Assembly: GCA_030374765.1 (NCBI GenBank)
Contig: JARGXX010000068.1
Coordinates: 2,046,001-2,110,000 of the forward strand
Direction of reading: 5' to 3'
DNA: 64,000 nucleotides
From: Agarophyton chilense
Taxonomy: Eukaryota; Rhodophyta; Florideophyceae; Gracilariales; Gracilariaceae
Shown: piece after piece, positions 17,489 to 43,017 of the stretch
Position numbering within the stretch: the stretch's first letter is position 1
Layout of the letters: every line of letters begins with the position of its first letter
The notes under the pieces: generated by a model
The model's input: only the letters and a program-made list of their open reading frames with translations
Database searches by the model: none
Told to the model about the DNA's origin: nothing
Program-made: the position numbers and the translations under genes

Positions 17489-18352
17489 TTAGCTCTCACC
17501 GCCAACAGAAGACTCATACCAACCATGCCAAAACAACTATCCAAAGACATCAAACTCACATGTAGTGCATGTCATCACGCCCAACTCTCCCCAGCCCCAC
17601 ACAAACCAAGAACCCACACGTATCCGGTAGGAGCCTACGTGAGCTCAGACACATGTGGCCCGGTTAAGTCCACATCAACACATGGAAATAATCATATGCT
17701 CCTTATTATATGTGCCACAAGCCGATGCACCATGGCCCATTTCGTGAGAAACCGCAAAGACATACCCAAACATATCGACAACACACTACACCATATAAAA
17801 CAACGTATGCACCATCTGCTAACGGATTTCCGGACTGATAACGCAAAAGAATACACATCCACGGCCATGCAACACATATACCACAACCATCAAGTCAAAC
17901 TTCACCTCTGCACACCGCATCAACCACAAAATAACTCCATCGCGGAACTATTTAACCGAAAAATTATGAACTCCGTCAGAGCACTGCTACACACAGCCAA
18001 ATTAGATGACACATACTGGGAGGACGCAGCCAGAGATACAATCTTCAAATATAACCTACTCCACCACGCACCAATCAACACATCCCCATACCATCTCTGG
18101 TACGGTCAACCACCACCACCTCAACCACTCTTCACATTCGGAGAATTAGGAACAATCCCAGCTTACGCACCGAAAAAGAAACTCGAACCACGGGCCGACC
18201 CAGCTAGATATATGTACCCAGTATCTCACACGCACTTGGTAGCCCTCAACCTGCGCACGCAGCAGTATCAACAATTACGAACGCAAGACTTTCACCCGTA
18301 TCACAATACTACAGATCCCACAGCCACACCCACCAACGCATTCAAAGCCTGA
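17489..18352 (+). pseudogene. Copia-1 integrase
   Basis: The frame is the same as gag and protease. It shows the Cys pair of the zinc region (CSACHHAQ), the first core Asp in SSDTCGPV, the second in TDFRTDNAKEY, and the Glu in NNSIAELFNRKI. A Trp-Tyr-Gly segment (PYHLWYGQPP) and the C-terminal GKR-like region follow. All catalytic residues are present; only the upstream stops and a frame change after 18352 break it. Confidence 0.8.
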
Positions 18353-32343: not shown

Positions 32344-33412
32344 ATGACAACAACAACTATTCGTCAATTACCCATGGTATGCCCCGGACATAATCGCGGC
32401 ATTGTTGAGCTTCAATATTCACCACCTGGATCGGAAGGGATTTTTCTCATGTCTGCCTGTCTCGACGGCATCCCCATGTTGCGAGATGGGATTTCTGGAG
32501 ACTGGATTGGTTCATTTGTAGGCCACAAGGGTGCGGTTTGGGGCGCTTGTATATCCTCCGACGCCTCCTTGGCCGCCACAGCTGGTGCCGACTTTACTGC
32601 ACGGCTTTGGAATGCTATTACAGGCCAATGCAAAACTGTTCTCACCCAAAAGCACATTTGCAAATCTGTTGCTTTTTCAGCGGACAACTCTCGATTGCTC
32701 ACAGCAGGGAACACCAGTTCCATCAACATTTACGATGTTGCGGCGTGCGAAGACACCCCTGTTGCGTTGCTAACTCCGAAAGATTCTACTGCTACCAAAC
32801 ACAGTGTAAAGCTGGCGCGATATGTCAAATCGGGCACGAACACTGTGGTTTCTGCCGTCAGTAGCGAGCAAGAAGAAAAGGTGTTGTCTATATGGGATGT
32901 CAGGTCTGGAAACGTTGAACGCAAACTGCCTTTAGGCTCGATATGCAAATCTGGAGAGTTAACTTCCGACGGTAAGATTCTCACCGTCACAGGAGGCGAT
33001 TCGACTTTATCAGTTTATGATTTTGACAAGATGGAGCGCATACAGCAAATACATCTTCCAGAACATACAGAAAGTGCTAGTCTTCGGTACCCACATATGG
33101 ATATGATGGTCGCTGGAGGTCAAGATCTTACGGTGAGAAGATTCGAGGTAGCGACTGATGGCACGACCGTAGAAAAAGAGGCAAACAGGGGCCATCATGG
33201 ACCAGTTTGGGTTGTTCGTTTCGCTCCAGATGGTGAAAGCTACGCCAGCGGCTCTGACGATGGTACAATTCGTTTATGGTAAGTTTACTTGAAAGCTCAT
33301 CACGAGGTCGGGGGAGCACAGCACTTGTCGTTAGTTACTAACAAGTTCTGCGTATTGCAATATGAAAACCATATCCAGGAAAACCAGCGTTGATCCGTCC
33401 CTCGTCGCCTGA
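32344..33412 (+). CDS. STRAP: STRAP-like WD40 repeat protein, two exons
   Basis: STRAP (unrip) is a seven-bladed WD40 protein that in animals binds the SMN complex and kinase receptors. The start at ATG 32344 gives the family opening with PMVCPGHNRGIVELQYSP, then GHKGAVWGACIS, TAGADFTARLWNAITG, HICKSVAFSADNSRLLTAG, VLSIWDVRSG, SGELTSDGKILTV, GGQDLTVRRFEV and GHHGPVWVVRFAPDGESYASGSDDGTIRLW. The open frame stops right after IRLW, but TGGTAAGT there is a splice donor. Joining 32344..33278 to 33379..33412 through an intron with a TACTAAC branch site extends the protein by KTSVDPSLVA to 322 residues. Human STRAP is about 350 residues with a longer acidic tail. It is convergent with NPL4, whose stop lies about 255 bp away. 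Confidence 0.88.
33279..33378 (+). other. Intron of the STRAP gene
   Basis: Donor GTAAGT at 33279, branch-site-like TTACTAAC at about 33335-33342, first AG well past it at 33377-33378; length 100 bp. It splits the Trp codon of the last WD repeat. Confidence 0.75.
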
Positions 33413-33667: not shown

Positions 33668-35029
33668 TCAAGCCGGAGAGGCCATACCATCGATCATAAG
33701 TCGGAATCCCTCACCAATATCCTGGCCTTCTTTTATAGACGACAAGAGACCCGGCATGTCTGTGCTCATGTCGAAAATATTAGACAAGAAAAGCAGCGCG
33801 TGAAAGTCACTGAGCCTTTGCGTATACGATAGTTCTTCGTTGGCAAGGATCTTCTTAAGGTCAGATGGGCCTTGGGGAGCAATTTCTCGGTTTTCAACAG
33901 CAAAAGCAGTTCGCAACCAGCTGTCGCAACTCTTGATTGGAATGTTCAGCAAAAAGAACTCAGTGTGCACTTTACGCGCATCTTTGCCTTCTACCAGTAC
34001 GTCCTCTTTACAGACCACGCGTCCTGAGTTAGGTTTTTGGTTGTCTTGATCCTCAAAGATGTCGTCAACATACATCTGCATGGCTAGATCAGAGATTTGA
34101 TAGGCTTCAAATAAAGTCTCTCCGGTTTCCGCTGTTGTAACGACCAGCACAACAAATGCTTTCTTCTGTTCATCTGAGAGATCTTTCGCCATACGTGCGG
34201 CAAATATCACATCCATTCCTGACAAGATGCACTTTCTGGGCCGTGCTGAAAACACTATTCCCACCCGCTGCAACCCTAACAATTGAGCTACGGTATCGGC
34301 TCTTTGAGTCATATCACCTTCATCATCCAGTTTGTAGAACTGATCAGAACCACTTTGTGGTGGCTCGTAGATAGCTAGAACACGCGTTTCTCCGCTCTCC
34401 GTTACATCGCCGTAGCATATACCGATACGTTGCTGTTGAAATCCTGTGCGCGCGATGTAGGCTTGAAACTGCTCTGCAGCTTTGTTGTCGACTAAGACGG
34501 CAGTGACATGAGCTTCAGACTGGGCTGTAATCTTGGTTTTCAGAGCCTCTAGGGCTTCCATAACGGCGACGCTCATGCCACGTCCTTTCCATTTGGCAAG
34601 CTCGTTCTCATATCGCTTGCGCTTGTCCTCCTTTGGCATACAGTGTTCGCACATTCCGCGGGGGCCGTGTCGGCATCGTGGTCGCCACGTTTCTGGTTCT
34701 GGCTGCGGCTGATCGTCATCAGCTCGGTCGGTTGTTGTTTCGTCTGCAGCGGATACCTTTGGTTCTGGCGCAGAGGAACTTGGTGATGGTGAGGTTTGCG
34801 GTTTGGACGGAGCTGTAGGTTTTGCTACCCCCTTGATGAAAATAACATCTCCGTGGCGGGCTTGTTCGAACATGAAGGGTTGGGTGAAGCGGATATCTGA
34901 ATAAAGCGCGAACTGGCCTTCCATTTTATCTAGGGCCTCGATCTTCGCTCCAAGATGTTGAAGGGTTTCGCCAGAATCAAGATTGACGCGCTCTGTAGCG
35001 CCATTCGGGAGTCGGATTCGCAAAATCAT
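33668..35029 (-). CDS. NPL4: NPL4 homologue, Cdc48/p97 ubiquitin adaptor
   Basis: NPL4 pairs with UFD1 to recruit Cdc48/p97 to ubiquitinated proteins in ER-associated degradation. The first ATG in frame is at 35029 (MILRIRLPNG), giving 453 residues. Residues 1-70 look like the ubiquitin-like N-terminal domain (GDVIFIKG at its end). A Ser/Pro/Asp-rich linker follows to about 115, then the zinc segment CRHGPRGMCEHC (Cys at about 119, 127, 130), and the MPN-like NPL4 domain with the diagnostic LAIYEPPQ (about 220), LGLQRVGIVFS, and FEAYQISDLAMQMYVDD. It is shorter than animal NPL4 (about 600 residues) and lacks a C-terminal NZF finger. It is convergent with STRAP and divergent from the KIX gene. 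Confidence 0.9.
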   Translation of the reverse strand: MILRIRLPNGATERVNLDSGETLQHLGAKIEALDKMEGQFALYSDIRFTQPFMFEQARHGDVIFIKGVAKPTAPSKPQTSPSPSSSAPEPKVSAADETTTDRADDDQPQPEPETWRPRCRHGPRGMCEHCMPKEDKRKRYENELAKWKGRGMSVAVMEALEALKTKITAQSEAHVTAVLVDNKAAEQFQAYIARTGFQQQRIGICYGDVTESGETRVLAIYEPPQSGSDQFYKLDDEGDMTQRADTVAQLLGLQRVGIVFSARPRKCILSGMDVIFAARMAKDLSDEQKKAFVVLVVTTAETGETLFEAYQISDLAMQMYVDDIFEDQDNQKPNSGRVVCKEDVLVEGKDARKVHTEFFLLNIPIKSCDSWLRTAFAVENREIAPQGPSDLKKILANEELSYTQRLSDFHALLFLSNIFDMSTDMPGLLSSIKEGQDIGEGFRLMIDGMASPA

Positions 35030-35841
35030 CAAGTCAGACAAAATATATTTGTGTACGGCGACGAGCGGCACGGGCAGCGATCTGAATACCGCTGGAGAAG
35101 GAGGACGATCGAACGCGCCGAAGAAGACAGACCAGGCGTAGAGGACGTCGCGCTAAGCGCTGGGGGCTGGAAGCGTCGACGAGTGGAGCGCAAGCGACAA
35201 AAAGGTCGAATGGAAGGGAGGCGCGAAATGGGGCGATCGACGAAAGTGAGCCGCATGGTGTTGTACGAGGTGGAGGGTATCTAACTCACGCGAAGCAAAG
35301 GCGAGGAGCGGGCGCGCCGCGCTGGACGGGAACAGCCAATCATTCGACGCACAGCGCCAGAGCACAGCAATGTCACGGCGGCCATGCTGTGTTTCGGCTG
35401 CAACTGGTCTTAGAGCGTTTCTTTCCACCTCGTGGTCGGAGTCACACACCTCAAACTGCCAATTTGGCGGAGCGCTCCGTACGGCCTATTACCATGAAAC
35501 AGCGCTCTGGGGCGGTTCGTTGCACTGTCCACCGCCGCTCGAAACAGACCAAGTCGTTCCCGTGCCGTGGGATAGCCTCCTCGTTCCTTTCGTAGCTCAG
35601 GCGTCATTCTCGCTCTGGTGCAAAGCACGCAAGCTCACCACCGCGAACTCATTGCCTCCAGCATGCTTGCACTCCACCATTCTTGTTTTCCTCAGTCATC
35701 AGCGCATGATACAGCATCTCTTTGGCTGCCCCTGCCTTCTGCTTCTGCGTTCTTCTATCTTCTTGATCCATAGTGGTTGCCAGCTTTTGCCAATCTTCGC
35801 CAGTCTTTGCTCTCGCATTTACTAGTCTTTGCCAATCCTGC
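35030..35841. other. Divergent promoter region between NPL4 and the triple-KIX gene
   Basis: About 0.8 kb. A plus-strand frame (35370-35825) and short minus-strand frames are open, but their translations show no domain and I treat them as chance. A word like CTTTGCCAATC is partly repeated near 35775-35840. No TATA box stands out. Confidence 0.45.
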
Positions 35842-37053
35842 ATGTCTCGGAATATCGATGCAGGGGACTGGTGTGGTGGATTGTCCCAGGTGGACCGGAG
35901 CGGTGTACTTTCTTCTGTGCTCGCCTTTCTAAGAGGTAAGATTCTACCTTAAATGTGTAAACTACCGTTTCTCTACTAACCTCTCACCTTTTGAACAGCG
36001 CACCACCCAAATGTCCCCCTACAACGGCTTTCTGATATTGCGTTTTCAATCGAACAAAGCTCTTTCACCGAGTCCGCATGCCCGACGTACTATTCTGACG
36101 CTGTTGTTGCTAGGTTGTATAATGCCAACGTTTCTTTATCAGTCGCGAATAGCGTGCCCAGTGCAACAGCTCCGTCTGAAACCAGTGTCACTGAGCATCC
36201 TCTAAATGAACAGCTTTCTACCTGTGCTGACTGGAGGCGCAGTTTGACTTTAGAAACGCGCAACAAAATCCTCCGATACATGGTCCGTAAAGTAACGGGT
36301 ATGTAAGCGTGTGTTCGCACCGCAAGCTCATCCTAATCTCAAAGACTCCTGACCGTTGTGCTCCTCTTTCTGCGCAGCATGCAATTTGGGAACATCTCCG
36401 CAAGCAATCATCAACGCAGTCGCAGCATTTGAGACCTGTGCCTTCTTCAGAACAAACTCATGCTGCGACTACCTTAAGCAATTAGCAGATGAAATCTATC
36501 GTTGTGAACACTATCACACCCTGCCTGTACTTTCTGCGGATGTACCGCTTCTACTGCAGCAATGGGGGATTCAGCCGCACGCACCTCAAACTCAAACTAG
36601 TCAACCGATGTCAGATAATGTGCCTGTTCCAGCTCCTCCAACTGGGCCGCAGAATATCATGAATATGGAACCTGGCGAGCTTCTGTCGTCACTCTTTGAG
36701 AAACCCAACTGGAAAGACCTACTCACACCTGCGGACCGCCACACTGTCGTGAGATTTATTTTCTCAAAACTAACGAGTAAGTTTTATTTAACCCTCCATA
36801 AATTCGGCTGTTTTTATGCTCCAAATTACTAAACATTGTATGAGGCGAAGATCTTAACCTAAGCGAGACGTTACAAGAAACATATCAAAGAGCAATCTCT
36901 TGCGAACTTGATGCATACACCAAAGCCGAAACAGGGCGCTCTTATCTCATGCATCTGAAAGATGTTAGTGCTGCATGTCTTCAGCCCGAGCGCGTTTCGG
37001 AAGCACGCACATTGTTGGAACGGAATGATGAGCGAAATGGAGAGGATACCTGA
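35842..37053 (+). CDS. Protein with three tandem KIX-like domains, four exons
   Basis: KIX domains (CBP/p300, MED15) are three-helix folds that bind activation domains. I join 35842..35935, 35999..36298, 36378..36776 and 36845..37053 to obtain 333 residues. Each of three units begins with D/N-W and keeps Trp (10, 110, 243), Leu four residues on and Arg nine residues on. Unit 1: DWCGGLSQVDRSGVLSSVL ... IAFSIEQSSF ... YYSDAVVARLY. Unit 2: DWRRSLTLETRNKILRYMV ... AVAAFETCAFF ... DYLKQLADEIY. Unit 3: NWKDLLTPADRHTVVRFIF ... YQRAISCELDAY ... SYLMHL. The introns (63, 79, 68 bp) have GT-AG ends, two have CTAAC/CTAAA-like branch sites, and each splits codon 23 counted from the Trp, in phase 1. Linkers are Ser/Thr/Pro-rich; there is no Gln-rich MED15 tail. 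It is probably a nuclear co-activator-like adaptor. The domain call comes from pattern matching. Confidence 0.75.
35936..35998 (+). other. Intron 1 of the triple-KIX gene
   Basis: GTAAGA donor, CTACTAAC branch-like site at about 35973-35980, TTTTGAACAG acceptor; 63 bp, phase 1. Confidence 0.8.
36299..36377 (+). other. Intron 2 of the triple-KIX gene
   Basis: GTATGT donor, CATCCTAATC branch-like site, pyrimidine-rich stretch then TGCGCAG acceptor; 79 bp, phase 1. Confidence 0.8.
36777..36844 (+). other. Intron 3 of the triple-KIX gene
   Basis: GTAAGT donor, TTACTAAAC branch-like site at about 36827-36835, TATGAG acceptor; 68 bp, phase 1. Confidence 0.75.
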
Positions 37054-37307: not shown

Positions 37308-37889
37308 TTACCACGAAACTTCGTCTATGTCTTTCAAAGCCGCTTGAAATTCGTCATCACAGTCATCAATTCCATCAGTAGGCTTCTGATAACAGAGGTC
37401 AGGAAGCATCTCACACATGATCTCGGCCCTACTCTTGATGGGTCTTCCAAACCGGTCTGGTACACCTTTCCCGGCATCCTTCAACTTAGAGCCCAACTGT
37501 TCCTTTTCTCGCTTCCTTCGTATGGCATTCTTCACCAAATGTCTTACATATCTTGGTCGCATCCACTGTCCTTCAAAACCTTTTTTCCTTAGCTCTATGG
37601 CCACTTGCATCGGAGTTCGACATCCTTTCCATACGATTTCCTCGATCGTCGTTTGAGCCTCTTCCTTTGTCACGTAGAGTCCCTTATGCAGCGTGGCAGC
37701 TTTGCGCCTGGCACTTCGACTGATACGGTGTAGTCGCGCCATGGTAAGTTGGTGCTTTATGTCTCCATGCATGAGGTTGAATGTATCGCTGATATGCTCA
37801 TTCTGAAGGTATGGATTTGCGTGACATAAATTAACGGTCCGTCGCAGATTCTCAGCTATTTGCTCAGTTTCCTTCTTATTGAATTCCAT
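37308..37889 (-). CDS. Unknown 193-residue basic/acidic protein
   Basis: An ATG at 37889 opens a clean frame of 193 residues. The N-terminal half is helical and charged (MEFNKKETEQIAENLRRTV, then RLHRISRSARRKAATLHKG). The middle reads ATTIEEIVWKG-like and PMQVAIELRKKGFEGQWMRPRYVRHLVKNAIRRKREKEQ, which suggests a small helix-turn-helix-like basic segment. The end is acidic (DDCDDEFQAALKDIDEV). I recognise no family. It has no signal peptide or membrane segment. It converges with the triple-KIX gene (255 bp between stops) and lies about 150 bp downstream of the next gene on the same strand. A nuclear or nucleic-acid-binding role is only a guess. Confidence 0.55.
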   Translation of the reverse strand: MEFNKKETEQIAENLRRTVNLCHANPYLQNEHISDTFNLMHGDIKHQLTMARLHRISRSARRKAATLHKGLYVTKEEAQTTIEEIVWKGCRTPMQVAIELRKKGFEGQWMRPRYVRHLVKNAIRRKREKEQLGSKLKDAGKGVPDRFGRPIKSRAEIMCEMLPDLCYQKPTDGIDDCDDEFQAALKDIDEVSW

Positions 37890-39095: not shown

Positions 39096-39307
39096 CGCAT
39101 AGATTCAGCTTAGATTGTGCAAACTCTCGACTCCGACGAAGTAAGCGAACACCAGGCGTTCGACAGACTGGGTTGTCAGGGTCTCGATGGGATCGTTTGC
39201 AGAATGCATCACAAGATGAGCGTGACACTGTGTCATTCGACCATTAAGATTTATATTTTTCTTAGTTTATGAACTGTTGATGAAGCATGAGAAGACACCA
39301 CCGAACC

Positions 39308-39380
39308 GGGTCTGTAGCTCAATTGGTAGAGTGCTCCCTTAGCATGGGAGAGGTACCGGGATCGAAGCCCGGCAGATCCA
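39308..39380 (+). tRNA. tRNA-Ala (anticodon AGC)
   Basis: 73 nt without CCA. The acceptor stem GGGTCTG pairs with CAGATCC (one G-U). The D-arm TAGCTCAATTGGTAGAG holds the A box, the anticodon stem CTCCC/GGGAG encloses TTAGCAT with anticodon AGC, and the T-arm CCGGGATCGAAGCCCGG holds the B box. A run of seven Ts at 39384-39390 is the RNA polymerase III terminator. No intron. Confidence 0.97.
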
Positions 39381-39383
39381 GTA

Positions 39384-39390
39384 TTTTTTT
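39384..39390 (+). terminator. RNA polymerase III terminator (T run)
   Basis: Seven Ts start 4 nt after the tRNA-Ala end. Confidence 0.85.
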
Positions 39391-39553
39391 CCATTTTAAA
39401 GGGCTCATACGTGGCCACATCGGCAATCGGTCTTCCGCTGCATCACGTCACTTGCTCCACCTCGCCATCCTGGTGATCCAGCGTCTACACCACGCTCTGT
39501 ATCCCCAATCTGTCAACTATCCTCGGCCACACTTCGTTCCTGTGAAACACAAA

Positions 39554-40936
39554 ATGGGCGATCCGCCTTCACCGTCGCCACAGCCTTCAATTGAGGAACT
39601 TTTGGCTACAAAGCTTTCAATAACATCCTACTCCATCAATGGCGTCAATCGAACAAAAGAAAAACTTATTCACAAAGTTCTGCAGCCTGTTTTATCCACG
39701 GGTGGCGATTTTGAAGGCGTTATAAACGATGTTTCGACAGCAGTTGATCGTTTAAGATCTACAAATTGCTATAAGGGGATCGACGCTTTTATTGATCATC
39801 AACATGATAAAACCGCTTCTGTCAGATTCACGTTTACGGAAAAATCGTCCGTGCAGCTTACAACTGGTACTTCGATTGATACGTCCAGTGAACGCGATGC
39901 ATCAATGGAAGGTACCTTAAGTATTCGGAACCTACTTGGTTCTGCTGATACGCTACGTTTCACGTTGGCCTGGATTGGCGCAACGTCTACATCGAAGTCA
40001 TTTTCAAAGAACCCTTCGAATTCATTCAGCGCATCGTACAATAGGCCGTTTGTACTTGGTTTGAACTCGTCTATGTTCTCAAATGTTTCGTATTCACAGC
40101 TGAATCACTCAGAAGCTTCCAGCTATAATCTTGTCACAAGACTTGCCGATTGCGGGTTGCATACCGTCTTGGGTACATTCACGCTAGCTTCAGCGTGGAG
40201 GAATCTTACCCATATTCAACCAACTGCTTCTTCTTTAATTCGCGATGATGCAAAGCATACATGGAAAACTTCTCTGAGACACAAAGTGGATGTCGATCTC
40301 AGAGATAATATGGTGATGCCGAATAAAGGCATTTTTGCATCTCTGACGCATGAGCATACCTTGCCGCTTGGAGATATTCAACTATCAACCGTAGAAACAG
40401 CCTTTCAATCGCATATTCCACTAGTAGCTGATGCAGTCTTGTCCTTTTCTTCCCGACTTGGTGCCCACTTTTCAAAAAGCCGCGTTCAAACCCCAGACCG
40501 TTTCTTCGTCGGTGGTTCTAATTCTCTACGTGGCTTTCAGACACGAGGAGTTGGTCCGATGGATGGGAAGGATTCAATCGGTGGAGATATGTTTTACACA
40601 GCAAGCATGATGCTGTCACTACCAATGCCTGCTAACTCGTTGCTATCGCAGTTGTTTAACGCGAGATTGCACGTGTTTATGAATGGCGGTGATGTACTTG
40701 AAATGGCTGATATGAGACAAGCAATCACAGATTTCAGGGGTCAAGGCTTGCAAGAAGCTGCCACGAAGGCTTACGAAGGAATGTACGATGGATTTCGGGT
40801 TGCTGCTGGGGTTGGTGTGGCATTCGATACTTCCGTTGGGCGAATTGAACTCAATCTTTGCAATGTGCTCAAGAGCTGCGTGTCGGATCAACCTCAGGTA
40901 GGATTTCAGTTTGGAGTCAGTCAATCTTTCTTGTGA
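39554..40936 (+). CDS. SAM50: SAM50/TOB55 mitochondrial outer-membrane beta-barrel insertase
   Basis: SAM50 (Omp85 family) folds beta-barrel proteins into the mitochondrial outer membrane. I start at ATG 39554 (MGDPPSPSP), giving 460 residues; the open frame extends further upstream but there it runs through the tRNA gene. The N-terminal about 110 residues look like a single POTRA domain (ITSYSINGVNRTKEKLIHKVL, FEGVINDVSTAVDRL). The rest is barrel with alternating strands. The L6 motif is GGSNSLRGF at about residue 320, and the C-terminal strand QVGFQFGVSQSFL is a good beta-signal. There is no cleavable presequence, as expected. The tRNA-Ala lies 174 bp upstream on the same strand. An AATAAA occurs about 75 bp after the stop (41011). 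Confidence 0.9.
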   Translation: MGDPPSPSPQPSIEELLATKLSITSYSINGVNRTKEKLIHKVLQPVLSTGGDFEGVINDVSTAVDRLRSTNCYKGIDAFIDHQHDKTASVRFTFTEKSSVQLTTGTSIDTSSERDASMEGTLSIRNLLGSADTLRFTLAWIGATSTSKSFSKNPSNSFSASYNRPFVLGLNSSMFSNVSYSQLNHSEASSYNLVTRLADCGLHTVLGTFTLASAWRNLTHIQPTASSLIRDDAKHTWKTSLRHKVDVDLRDNMVMPNKGIFASLTHEHTLPLGDIQLSTVETAFQSHIPLVADAVLSFSSRLGAHFSKSRVQTPDRFFVGGSNSLRGFQTRGVGPMDGKDSIGGDMFYTASMMLSLPMPANSLLSQLFNARLHVFMNGGDVLEMADMRQAITDFRGQGLQEAATKAYEGMYDGFRVAAGVGVAFDTSVGRIELNLCNVLKSCVSDQPQVGFQFGVSQSFL

Positions 40937-41826: not shown

Positions 41827-43017
41827 CTACTCGCTCTCCTTGTACATATCCAGGAGCTCTTCTACATCTTCCTTACTACCAATAATGAGGGGCATACGTT
41901 GATGCACAGTGTCTGGAATAACATCCATGACCCGTTCTTTACCGGTTGTGGCGAGTCCACCCGCTTGTTCAATGATGAAGGACATCGGGGCACACTCGTA
42001 CAACAATCTTAGCTTCCCATTGGGATTCTTGCGGTCTCCAGGGTATCCGAAGACTCCACCATACAACAAAGTGCGATGGACATCGGCAACTAAACTGCCA
42101 ATATATCTCGAAGAATACTTCACCCCAGCATTGTTTTCACCGCTCTTCAGTTTCTCAACATACTTTCTTAATACAGGATCCCAGGCCGGGGAATTGGCCT
42201 CATTGAAAGAATAAATCTTTCCTCGTGATGGAATCTTAATGTCTGGATGTGTGAGGACAAATTCGCCGATCTGTGGGTCAAGTGTGAACCCATTAACTCC
42301 GCTTCCGGTGGTAAGCACCATCATTACGGATGAAGAATACATGCAATACCCTGCAACGACAAGATTGGCACCAGGTTGCATGGTGTTGTACAAGCAAGTG
42401 AGTTCACTTTCGTCAATTTTTGACTCCCAATCAGACGCCAAGCAGCCGGTGTTTTGTACAAAGATTCCGAAGATAGTACCGGTGGCAATTCCGGCGTCGA
42501 TATTGGAACTTCCGTCAAGCGGGTCGAACACAGCGACATAATTTCCAGAATAAACTTCATCCACCATAACCGGCTCGTCTTCCTCCTCCGAGGCAATGAT
42601 ACCCATCTTTCCAGAGTAACGCAAGGCATTCTTTAGCACCTCATTGGACAAGACGTCAAGCTTCTTTTGCTCTTCACCCTGAACATTTATAGCACCGCCT
42701 TCATCGTAGCCGGTCAAATTGGTTATGCCAGCACGCTGCACAAGCGAAGCAATCTTCTTGCACGCGAGTTGAATGGAAGACATGAGGGACTGCATATCTT
42801 GCATGTGTTCCAAATCTGTATTATCCATTGCACTCTGAATCATATAGCGAGTGAGAGTCATGGGTGAAGTATCGGAATGCACGGTCTGAGTCGGAGGCGC
42901 AACGACCATTGTCGGCGTGCGACGACTACGCACATGCTGGGTAGAGCGACTCTGGGAGGAAGATACAGCAGTCGACGGACGAACCGGGAGAGCGAGGGCG
43001 GGGATGAATGCCGTCAT
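41827..43017 (-). CDS. FBP: Plastid fructose-1,6-bisphosphatase
   Basis: FBPase hydrolyses fructose-1,6-bisphosphate to fructose-6-phosphate in the Calvin cycle. The start at ATG 43017 gives 396 residues. The first about 50 residues (Ser/Thr/Arg/Ala/Pro-rich, ending near VVAPPTQTVHSDT) are a plausible plastid targeting extension. Catalytic and metal sites are intact: SEEEDEP (143-149), DPLDGSSN (165-172), NNAGVKYSSRYIGSLVADVHRTL, and KLRLLYECAPMSF (335-347). The regulatory loop has Cys192 and Cys208, 16 residues apart, in the place where plant plastid FBPase forms its thioredoxin-sensitive disulfide, while the loop sequence itself differs. A third Cys (225) is in the conserved AGYCMYSSS block. 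No intron. It diverges from the AAAP gene over 476 bp containing a large palindrome. Confidence 0.95.
   Translation of the reverse strand: MTAFIPALALPVRPSTAVSSSQSRSTQHVRSRRTPTMVVAPPTQTVHSDTSPMTLTRYMIQSAMDNTDLEHMQDMQSLMSSIQLACKKIASLVQRAGITNLTGYDEGGAINVQGEEQKKLDVLSNEVLKNALRYSGKMGIIASEEEDEPVMVDEVYSGNYVAVFDPLDGSSNIDAGIATGTIFGIFVQNTGCLASDWESKIDESELTCLYNTMQPGANLVVAGYCMYSSSVMMVLTTGSGVNGFTLDPQIGEFVLTHPDIKIPSRGKIYSFNEANSPAWDPVLRKYVEKLKSGENNAGVKYSSRYIGSLVADVHRTLLYGGVFGYPGDRKNPNGKLRLLYECAPMSFIIEQAGGLATTGKERVMDVIPDTVHQRMPLIIGSKEDVEELLDMYKESE

Follow-up and report, generated by a model that had tools for sequence, protein, structure and literature searches.

MED15 carries one KIX domain, CBP and p300 likewise have one per protein, and KIX8 and KIX9 of Arabidopsis, small proteins without HAT or Mediator-tail parts, combine one KIX domain with an EAR motif. 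The preliminary description of the locus treated here had stated that KIX domains in CBP/p300 and MED15 usually occur once per protein, which is right for these proteins. In land plants, tandem-KIX proteins, with up to six domains in Brassica oleracea, are recorded in the available parts of the KIXBASE paper (PMC5668377) and of PMC3936767, and soybean KIX proteins carry one or two KIX domains (PMC10565003, available part). The domain itself is described in PMC3936767 as a site of three helices on which transcription factors dock, and KIX8 and KIX9 appear in the accessible text of PMC5814100 as adaptors linking PPD and TOPLESS. Red algae have been reported, in what is available of PMC5499015, to be without CBP acetyltransferases; in the excerpts obtained from the literature on KIX combined with red algae, with multiple or tandem KIX, or with intron phase, no red-algal multi-KIX protein is described.

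The present review of a stretch of 64,000 nucleotides from the red alga Agarophyton chilense (the window) is focused on one gene, which encodes a protein with three KIX units. Several KIX domains per chain, here three, liken it to the plant tandem-KIX proteins, a likeness drawn by description for a case that is red-algal; tandem KIX being already known in plants, the protein is neat and not unprecedented. We class it among the tandem-KIX proteins, its domains being of the MED15 type, and regard it neither as a MED15 subunit nor as a CBP.

Exons, introns and neighbourhood of the three-KIX gene

The gene lies on the plus strand of the window and consists of four exons, which once joined give a coding sequence of 996 nt, that is 331 codons plus a stop; the three introns, of 63, 79, and 74 nt, are all of the GT...AG type, and the exon ends given in the preliminary description (35935, 36298, and 36776) are correct. 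Exon 1 (35842..35935), whose start codon is the earliest Met in frame downstream of a stop, encodes the N-terminal half of KIX unit 1 (residues 1-31 and the first base of codon 32) and is followed by intron 1 (35936..35998; phase 1, GTAAGA...AACAG), in which a branch-like TACTAAC stands close to the end. Exon 2 (35999..36298), symmetrical 1-1, carries the C-terminal half of unit 1, a linker and the N-terminal half of unit 2; intron 2 (36299..36377; phase 1, GTATGT...CGCAG) contains a CCTGAC branch-like site. Exon 3 (36378..36776), again symmetrical 1-1, comprises the C-terminal half of unit 2, a Pro-containing linker and the N-terminal half of unit 3; in intron 3 (36777..36850; phase 1, GTAAGT...CGAAG) a branch-like site, TTACTAAAC, is recognized by eye, and exon 4 (36851..37053) closes the gene with the C-terminal half of unit 3, a short C-terminal tail and the stop codon.

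Retention of any of the three introns brings in an in-frame stop. GT/GC-AG pairs that keep the frame open within 40 nt number 3, 6, and 13 for introns 1, 2, and 3, respectively (the pair of the model being counted), and the donors used are, by eye, the nearest to GTAAGT among the choices. For intron 3 there is an alternative in-frame acceptor, the AG ending at 36844, 6 nt upstream of that of the model; with it the score of unit 3 against the Pfam family KIX_2 is 22.9 bits, compared to 25.8 bits with the model acceptor, and the distance between the interrupted codon and the conserved Glu, otherwise 18 residues in all three units, is no longer equal. Codon usage, trained on four other open reading frames of the window (1724 codons; three with Pfam matches, the fourth at 32344), ranks the proposed frame first among the three forward frames in each of the four exons; none of 1000 shuffled versions of the coding sequence scores as high as the sequence itself, the value of which is near zero (0.026 bits per codon). 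A DNA search of the genome (79.8 Mb, 135 contigs), together with tblastn, returned, among the best candidates scored, the exons of the window only, and the gene is apparently single-copy and nuclear.

Around the gene, Pfam identifies members of the NPL4 family (window 33668-35071, minus strand), of the Omp85 superfamily (39287-40936, plus strand) and a fructose-1,6-bisphosphatase (41827-43017, minus strand). A 193-aa open frame on the minus strand (37308-37889), oriented tail to tail with the three-KIX gene at a distance of 254 nt, has no Pfam match at E 0.01, and at 17525-18352 (plus strand) a match to an integrase core (rve) of 32.5 bits, the cut-off being 32.6, is likely a piece of a retroelement. 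The contig to which the window belongs (C68) starts with telomere-like CCCTAAA repeats, 126 of them in 3 kb (L054, C68:1-3000).

Three divergent domains of the MED15 type

The conservation of Trp, Leu (+4), and Arg (+9) claimed at the outset is borne out in all three units, whose Trp residues are 10, 110, and 243; Gln +30, Glu +40, and Tyr +53, counted from the Trp, are invariant too. The Trp, Arg, Glu, and Tyr presumably correspond to Trp591, Arg600, Glu636, and Tyr649 of CBP, with which we matched them by eye. Alignment of the units over 69 residues requires no gaps, the identity of unit 1 being 16% to unit 2 and 19% to unit 3; gapless pairwise scores exceed those of shuffled residues by 4.7 to 7.7 SD, and register 0 is the best register in each of the three pairs.

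When the spliced protein is compared with Pfam, KIX_2 (PF16987) is matched in three stretches with a total of 53.4 bits (E 2.5e-14; cut-off 25.6), so that the three KIX-type domains of the preliminary description, for which this very search had been suggested, are supported by sequence. Taken singly, units 1 and 2 score 17.5 and 19.3 bits, below the cut-off, and unit 3, with the value given above for the model acceptor, lies over it; one exon out of four matches KIX_2 on its own (exon 3, 14.6 bits, a weak half-match), and three shuffled proteins tested, out of four made, match no Pfam family. The domain signal thus resides in the spliced protein and not in single exons or shuffles, which argues that splicing at these sites makes the domains. 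A wrong gene model, or a dying gene whose units are remnants and which yields no intact spliced mRNA, would be in keeping with the low scores of units 1 and 2 alone; it is nevertheless very unlikely, given good splice sites, a spliced reading frame that runs for 331 codons without a stop, a codon usage that is specific to the frame in all four exons and the E value of the KIX_2 match. We infer that the gene is spliced as modelled, and its anatomy, the homology of its domains and the common position of its introns may be regarded as established from the sequence.

KIX_2 aside, no Pfam family comes near its cut-off on the spliced protein; a match to NTP_transf_5 overlapping unit 3 (E 0.0084; 16.1 bits, with the cut-off at 31.2) was taken as chance, and a scan with NCBIfam, a prokaryote library, gave no match. 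The KIX_2 type is a feature shared with MED15 and MED15a; unlike MED15, the three-KIX protein holds just 16 Gln in 331 residues and has no Med15 family among its Pfam matches up to E 10. With CBP/p300, whose KIX (PF02172) is of the same fold family, the differences are that TAZ, bromo, and HAT domains are absent from the Pfam matches up to E 10 and that PF02172 is matched, by the whole protein and by unit 2, below the cut-off only. KIX8 and KIX9 differ in turn by their single KIX and by the TOPLESS-recruiting EAR motif, since neither LxLxL nor DLNxxP, the patterns given for EAR in the available part of PMC6283911, is present in the three-KIX protein.

Searched against the PDB set, a profile built from the three units has a single match up to E 10, the KIX domain of MED15a (9zjn_C, E 2.8e-4); a six-sequence profile, to which three of the eight KIX_2 places over cut-off in the same genome were added (L002, L007, and L008), matches MED15a KIX at E 4.4e-8 and the KIX domains of CBP and p300 from E 9.3e-4, the latter being the value for CBP. 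The whole protein, used as a single phmmer query against PDB chains, finds none up to E 10. AlphaFold, run on the two internal exon pieces singly, gave models of low confidence (mean pLDDT 46.7 and 45.9); the helices of these low-confidence models, at 7-18, 33-51, and 84-98 in the exon-2 piece and at 7-23, 26-44, and 117-131 in the exon-3 piece, with shorter ones elsewhere in both, coincide with the expected positions of helix 2, helix 3 and helix 1 of the following unit. Each unit is therefore likely, as far as such models and profiles indicate, to be a three-helix KIX bundle.

The same evidence bears on the proposal that the KIX fold is re-used here outside transcription activation, for example in a scaffold for repair or protein turnover. 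Such re-use has precedents, KIX domains being reported in RECQL5 and in rice F-box proteins (PMC3936767, available part); it is however unlikely for this protein, in which no helicase, F-box, or other partner domain was found by Pfam and whose nearest solved chain is the KIX of MED15a.

A shared intron and the KIX relatives in the genome

The introns interrupt codons 32, 132, and 265 after the first base, that is, codon 23 from the Trp in phase 1 in every unit, exactly as the preliminary description had it. A search of the genome with KIX_2 recovered nine places, eight of them over the cut-off; the window gene was missed because its domains are split by introns and the search was carried out without splicing. 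Three of these places are genes on contig C117 (L007-L009, at C117:321617, 384391, and 450607), in each of which a Gln-rich tail comes after a single KIX, and five are copies of another type (C29-type, L002-L006, on C29, C103, C104 (two), and C105), more than 99% identical where they overlap. A Gln-rich tail was read in four of the eight (L002 and L007-L009), amounting in L007 to 91 Gln in 319 residues. These single-KIX, Gln-rich genes share with the three-KIX gene the KIX_2 type and, on C117, the intron site, and differ from it by having one KIX and a Gln-rich tail each. Med15_N is found in the genome in three places, which are the C117 genes, all below cut-off; Med15_C gave none at E up to 1, in a search whose controls were also silent and which an intron-split gene could escape, and zf-TAZ gave none in an intron-blind search.

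In all three C117 genes a phase-1 intron lies 13 codons past the conserved Arg, as in the three units of the window; the site is codon 23 from the Trp in L008 and L009, and L007 has Ser there. Since codon and phase are the same in these single-KIX genes, the intron probably predates the triplication. The C29-type genes match KIX_2 in a single open stretch and are thus without the phase-1 intron. The simplest account, as judged from these sequences, is that the intron is old in the KIX domain of this lineage, was passed to all three units and was lost in the C29 type; inheritance along with the domain probably explains the common position, repeated insertion at one site being less likely.

The preliminary description had proposed instead a triplication at the level of exons, by 1-1 units. 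This proposal is supported in part only: the common intron position is accounted for by inheritance from a state shared with the C117 genes, and the pattern of similarity among the halves speaks weakly against it. Copying of a 1-1 exon (a C-terminal half plus the next N-terminal half) would leave the C-terminal halves of units 1 and 2 as the closest, whereas in both halves it is units 2 and 3 that score highest with each other (N-terminal half, score 40 versus 21 and 12; C-terminal half, 27 versus 8 and -4). The balance, drawn from pairwise half-domain scores alone in three diverged units, leans weakly towards whole domains having been duplicated with their intron, and faster change in unit 1 could mislead it. 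With unit 1 so little identical to the other two, the triplication looks old.

Other observations on the relatives concern the genome rather than the window. The C117 genes are spaced 63 and 66 kb apart and two of them are 99.4% identical over 2.5 kb, the segment having been copied recently; L007 contains long VQGVQN-like and QQHQL-like repeats. The repeat that holds the C29-type KIX and Gln-rich gene exceeds 10 kb, is more than 99% identical and lies near contig ends (L002-L006, L043-L050); on C104 (74.9 kb) it is found at both ends in opposite orientation: probably an unresolved long repeat bearing a MED15-like gene. A broken C29-type KIX gene (L037, C88:3069245), its KIX pieces spread over different frames and interrupted by stops, is found about 46 kb from a contig end, and the end piece in question (L051) has 14 TTTAGGG. 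A subtelomeric KIX family was considered and is not supported: in the terminal pieces of C29, C103, C104, and C105 no strand has more than one CCCTAAA-type repeat.

Among weaker candidates, the ninth place (L010, on C99) was not counted as KIX, its 20.4 and 16.8 bits being below the cut-off and EloA-BP1 scoring equally at 16.8. All 11 matches to PF02172 elsewhere in the genome are below cut-off and were treated as chance; the plus-strand matches (L017-L022, six in number) continue into one common protein that, by reading, resembles retroelement gag, and the five on the minus strand resemble the reverse complement of this gag-like protein. Viral contigs, searched for relatives of the three-KIX protein, yielded none. 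Matches to phycobilisome families (n=15, all over cut-off; 14 on C39 and 1 on C27) are as in red algae.

A putative multivalent adaptor

By analogy with the known KIX proteins, a role as co-activator or adaptor is plausible. The reading that we prefer, to which we give an even chance, is that three divergent KIX domains of the MED15 type and their linkers, derived by successive whole-domain duplication, act as a multivalent transcription adaptor. A whole KIX domain already bearing a phase-1 intron just past its first helix would have been duplicated in successive steps whose order is presumed; in the protein, presumably nuclear, each three-helix bundle would dock in its groove the amphipathic activation (or repression) motif carried by a regulator of transcription, as expected from the domain, and one molecule could bridge several regulators, or a regulator to a cofactor. 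The linkers (residues 75-105, 31 residues, and 175-238, 64 residues; 12 Pro within 172-241) could allow the units to act independently. Being devoid of HAT, TAZ, and Med15 regions, the protein itself would bridge and not catalyse.

The main rival to a bridging adaptor is a decoy, that is, a KIX-only protein that would damp transcription by competing for activation domains with the single-KIX, Gln-rich (MED15-like) proteins which the alga also has. The lack of any effector domain detectable with Pfam or NCBIfam is in its favour, as are the potential competitors represented by the eight other KIX_2 places over cut-off, with the Gln-rich tails read in half of them; shared targets are not favoured by the low identity, 14-19%, between unit 1 and the five remaining sequences of the alignment. 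A decoy seems improbable. A bolder extension of the adaptor reading, quite unlikely in our judgement, is that a red-algal lineage without CBP tripled the MED15-type KIX into a stand-alone, multivalent co-activator, whose copies would be tuned to different activators and would integrate them combinatorially as animal CBP/p300 does.

KIX domains are a model for the recognition of disordered activation domains, and a compact protein with three divergent KIX, in an algal group reported to be without CBP acetyltransferases, would offer a natural case for testing how activators dock in a multivalent way. The common intron, for its part, provides a marker of descent for red-algal KIX genes that is independent of their very low sequence identity.
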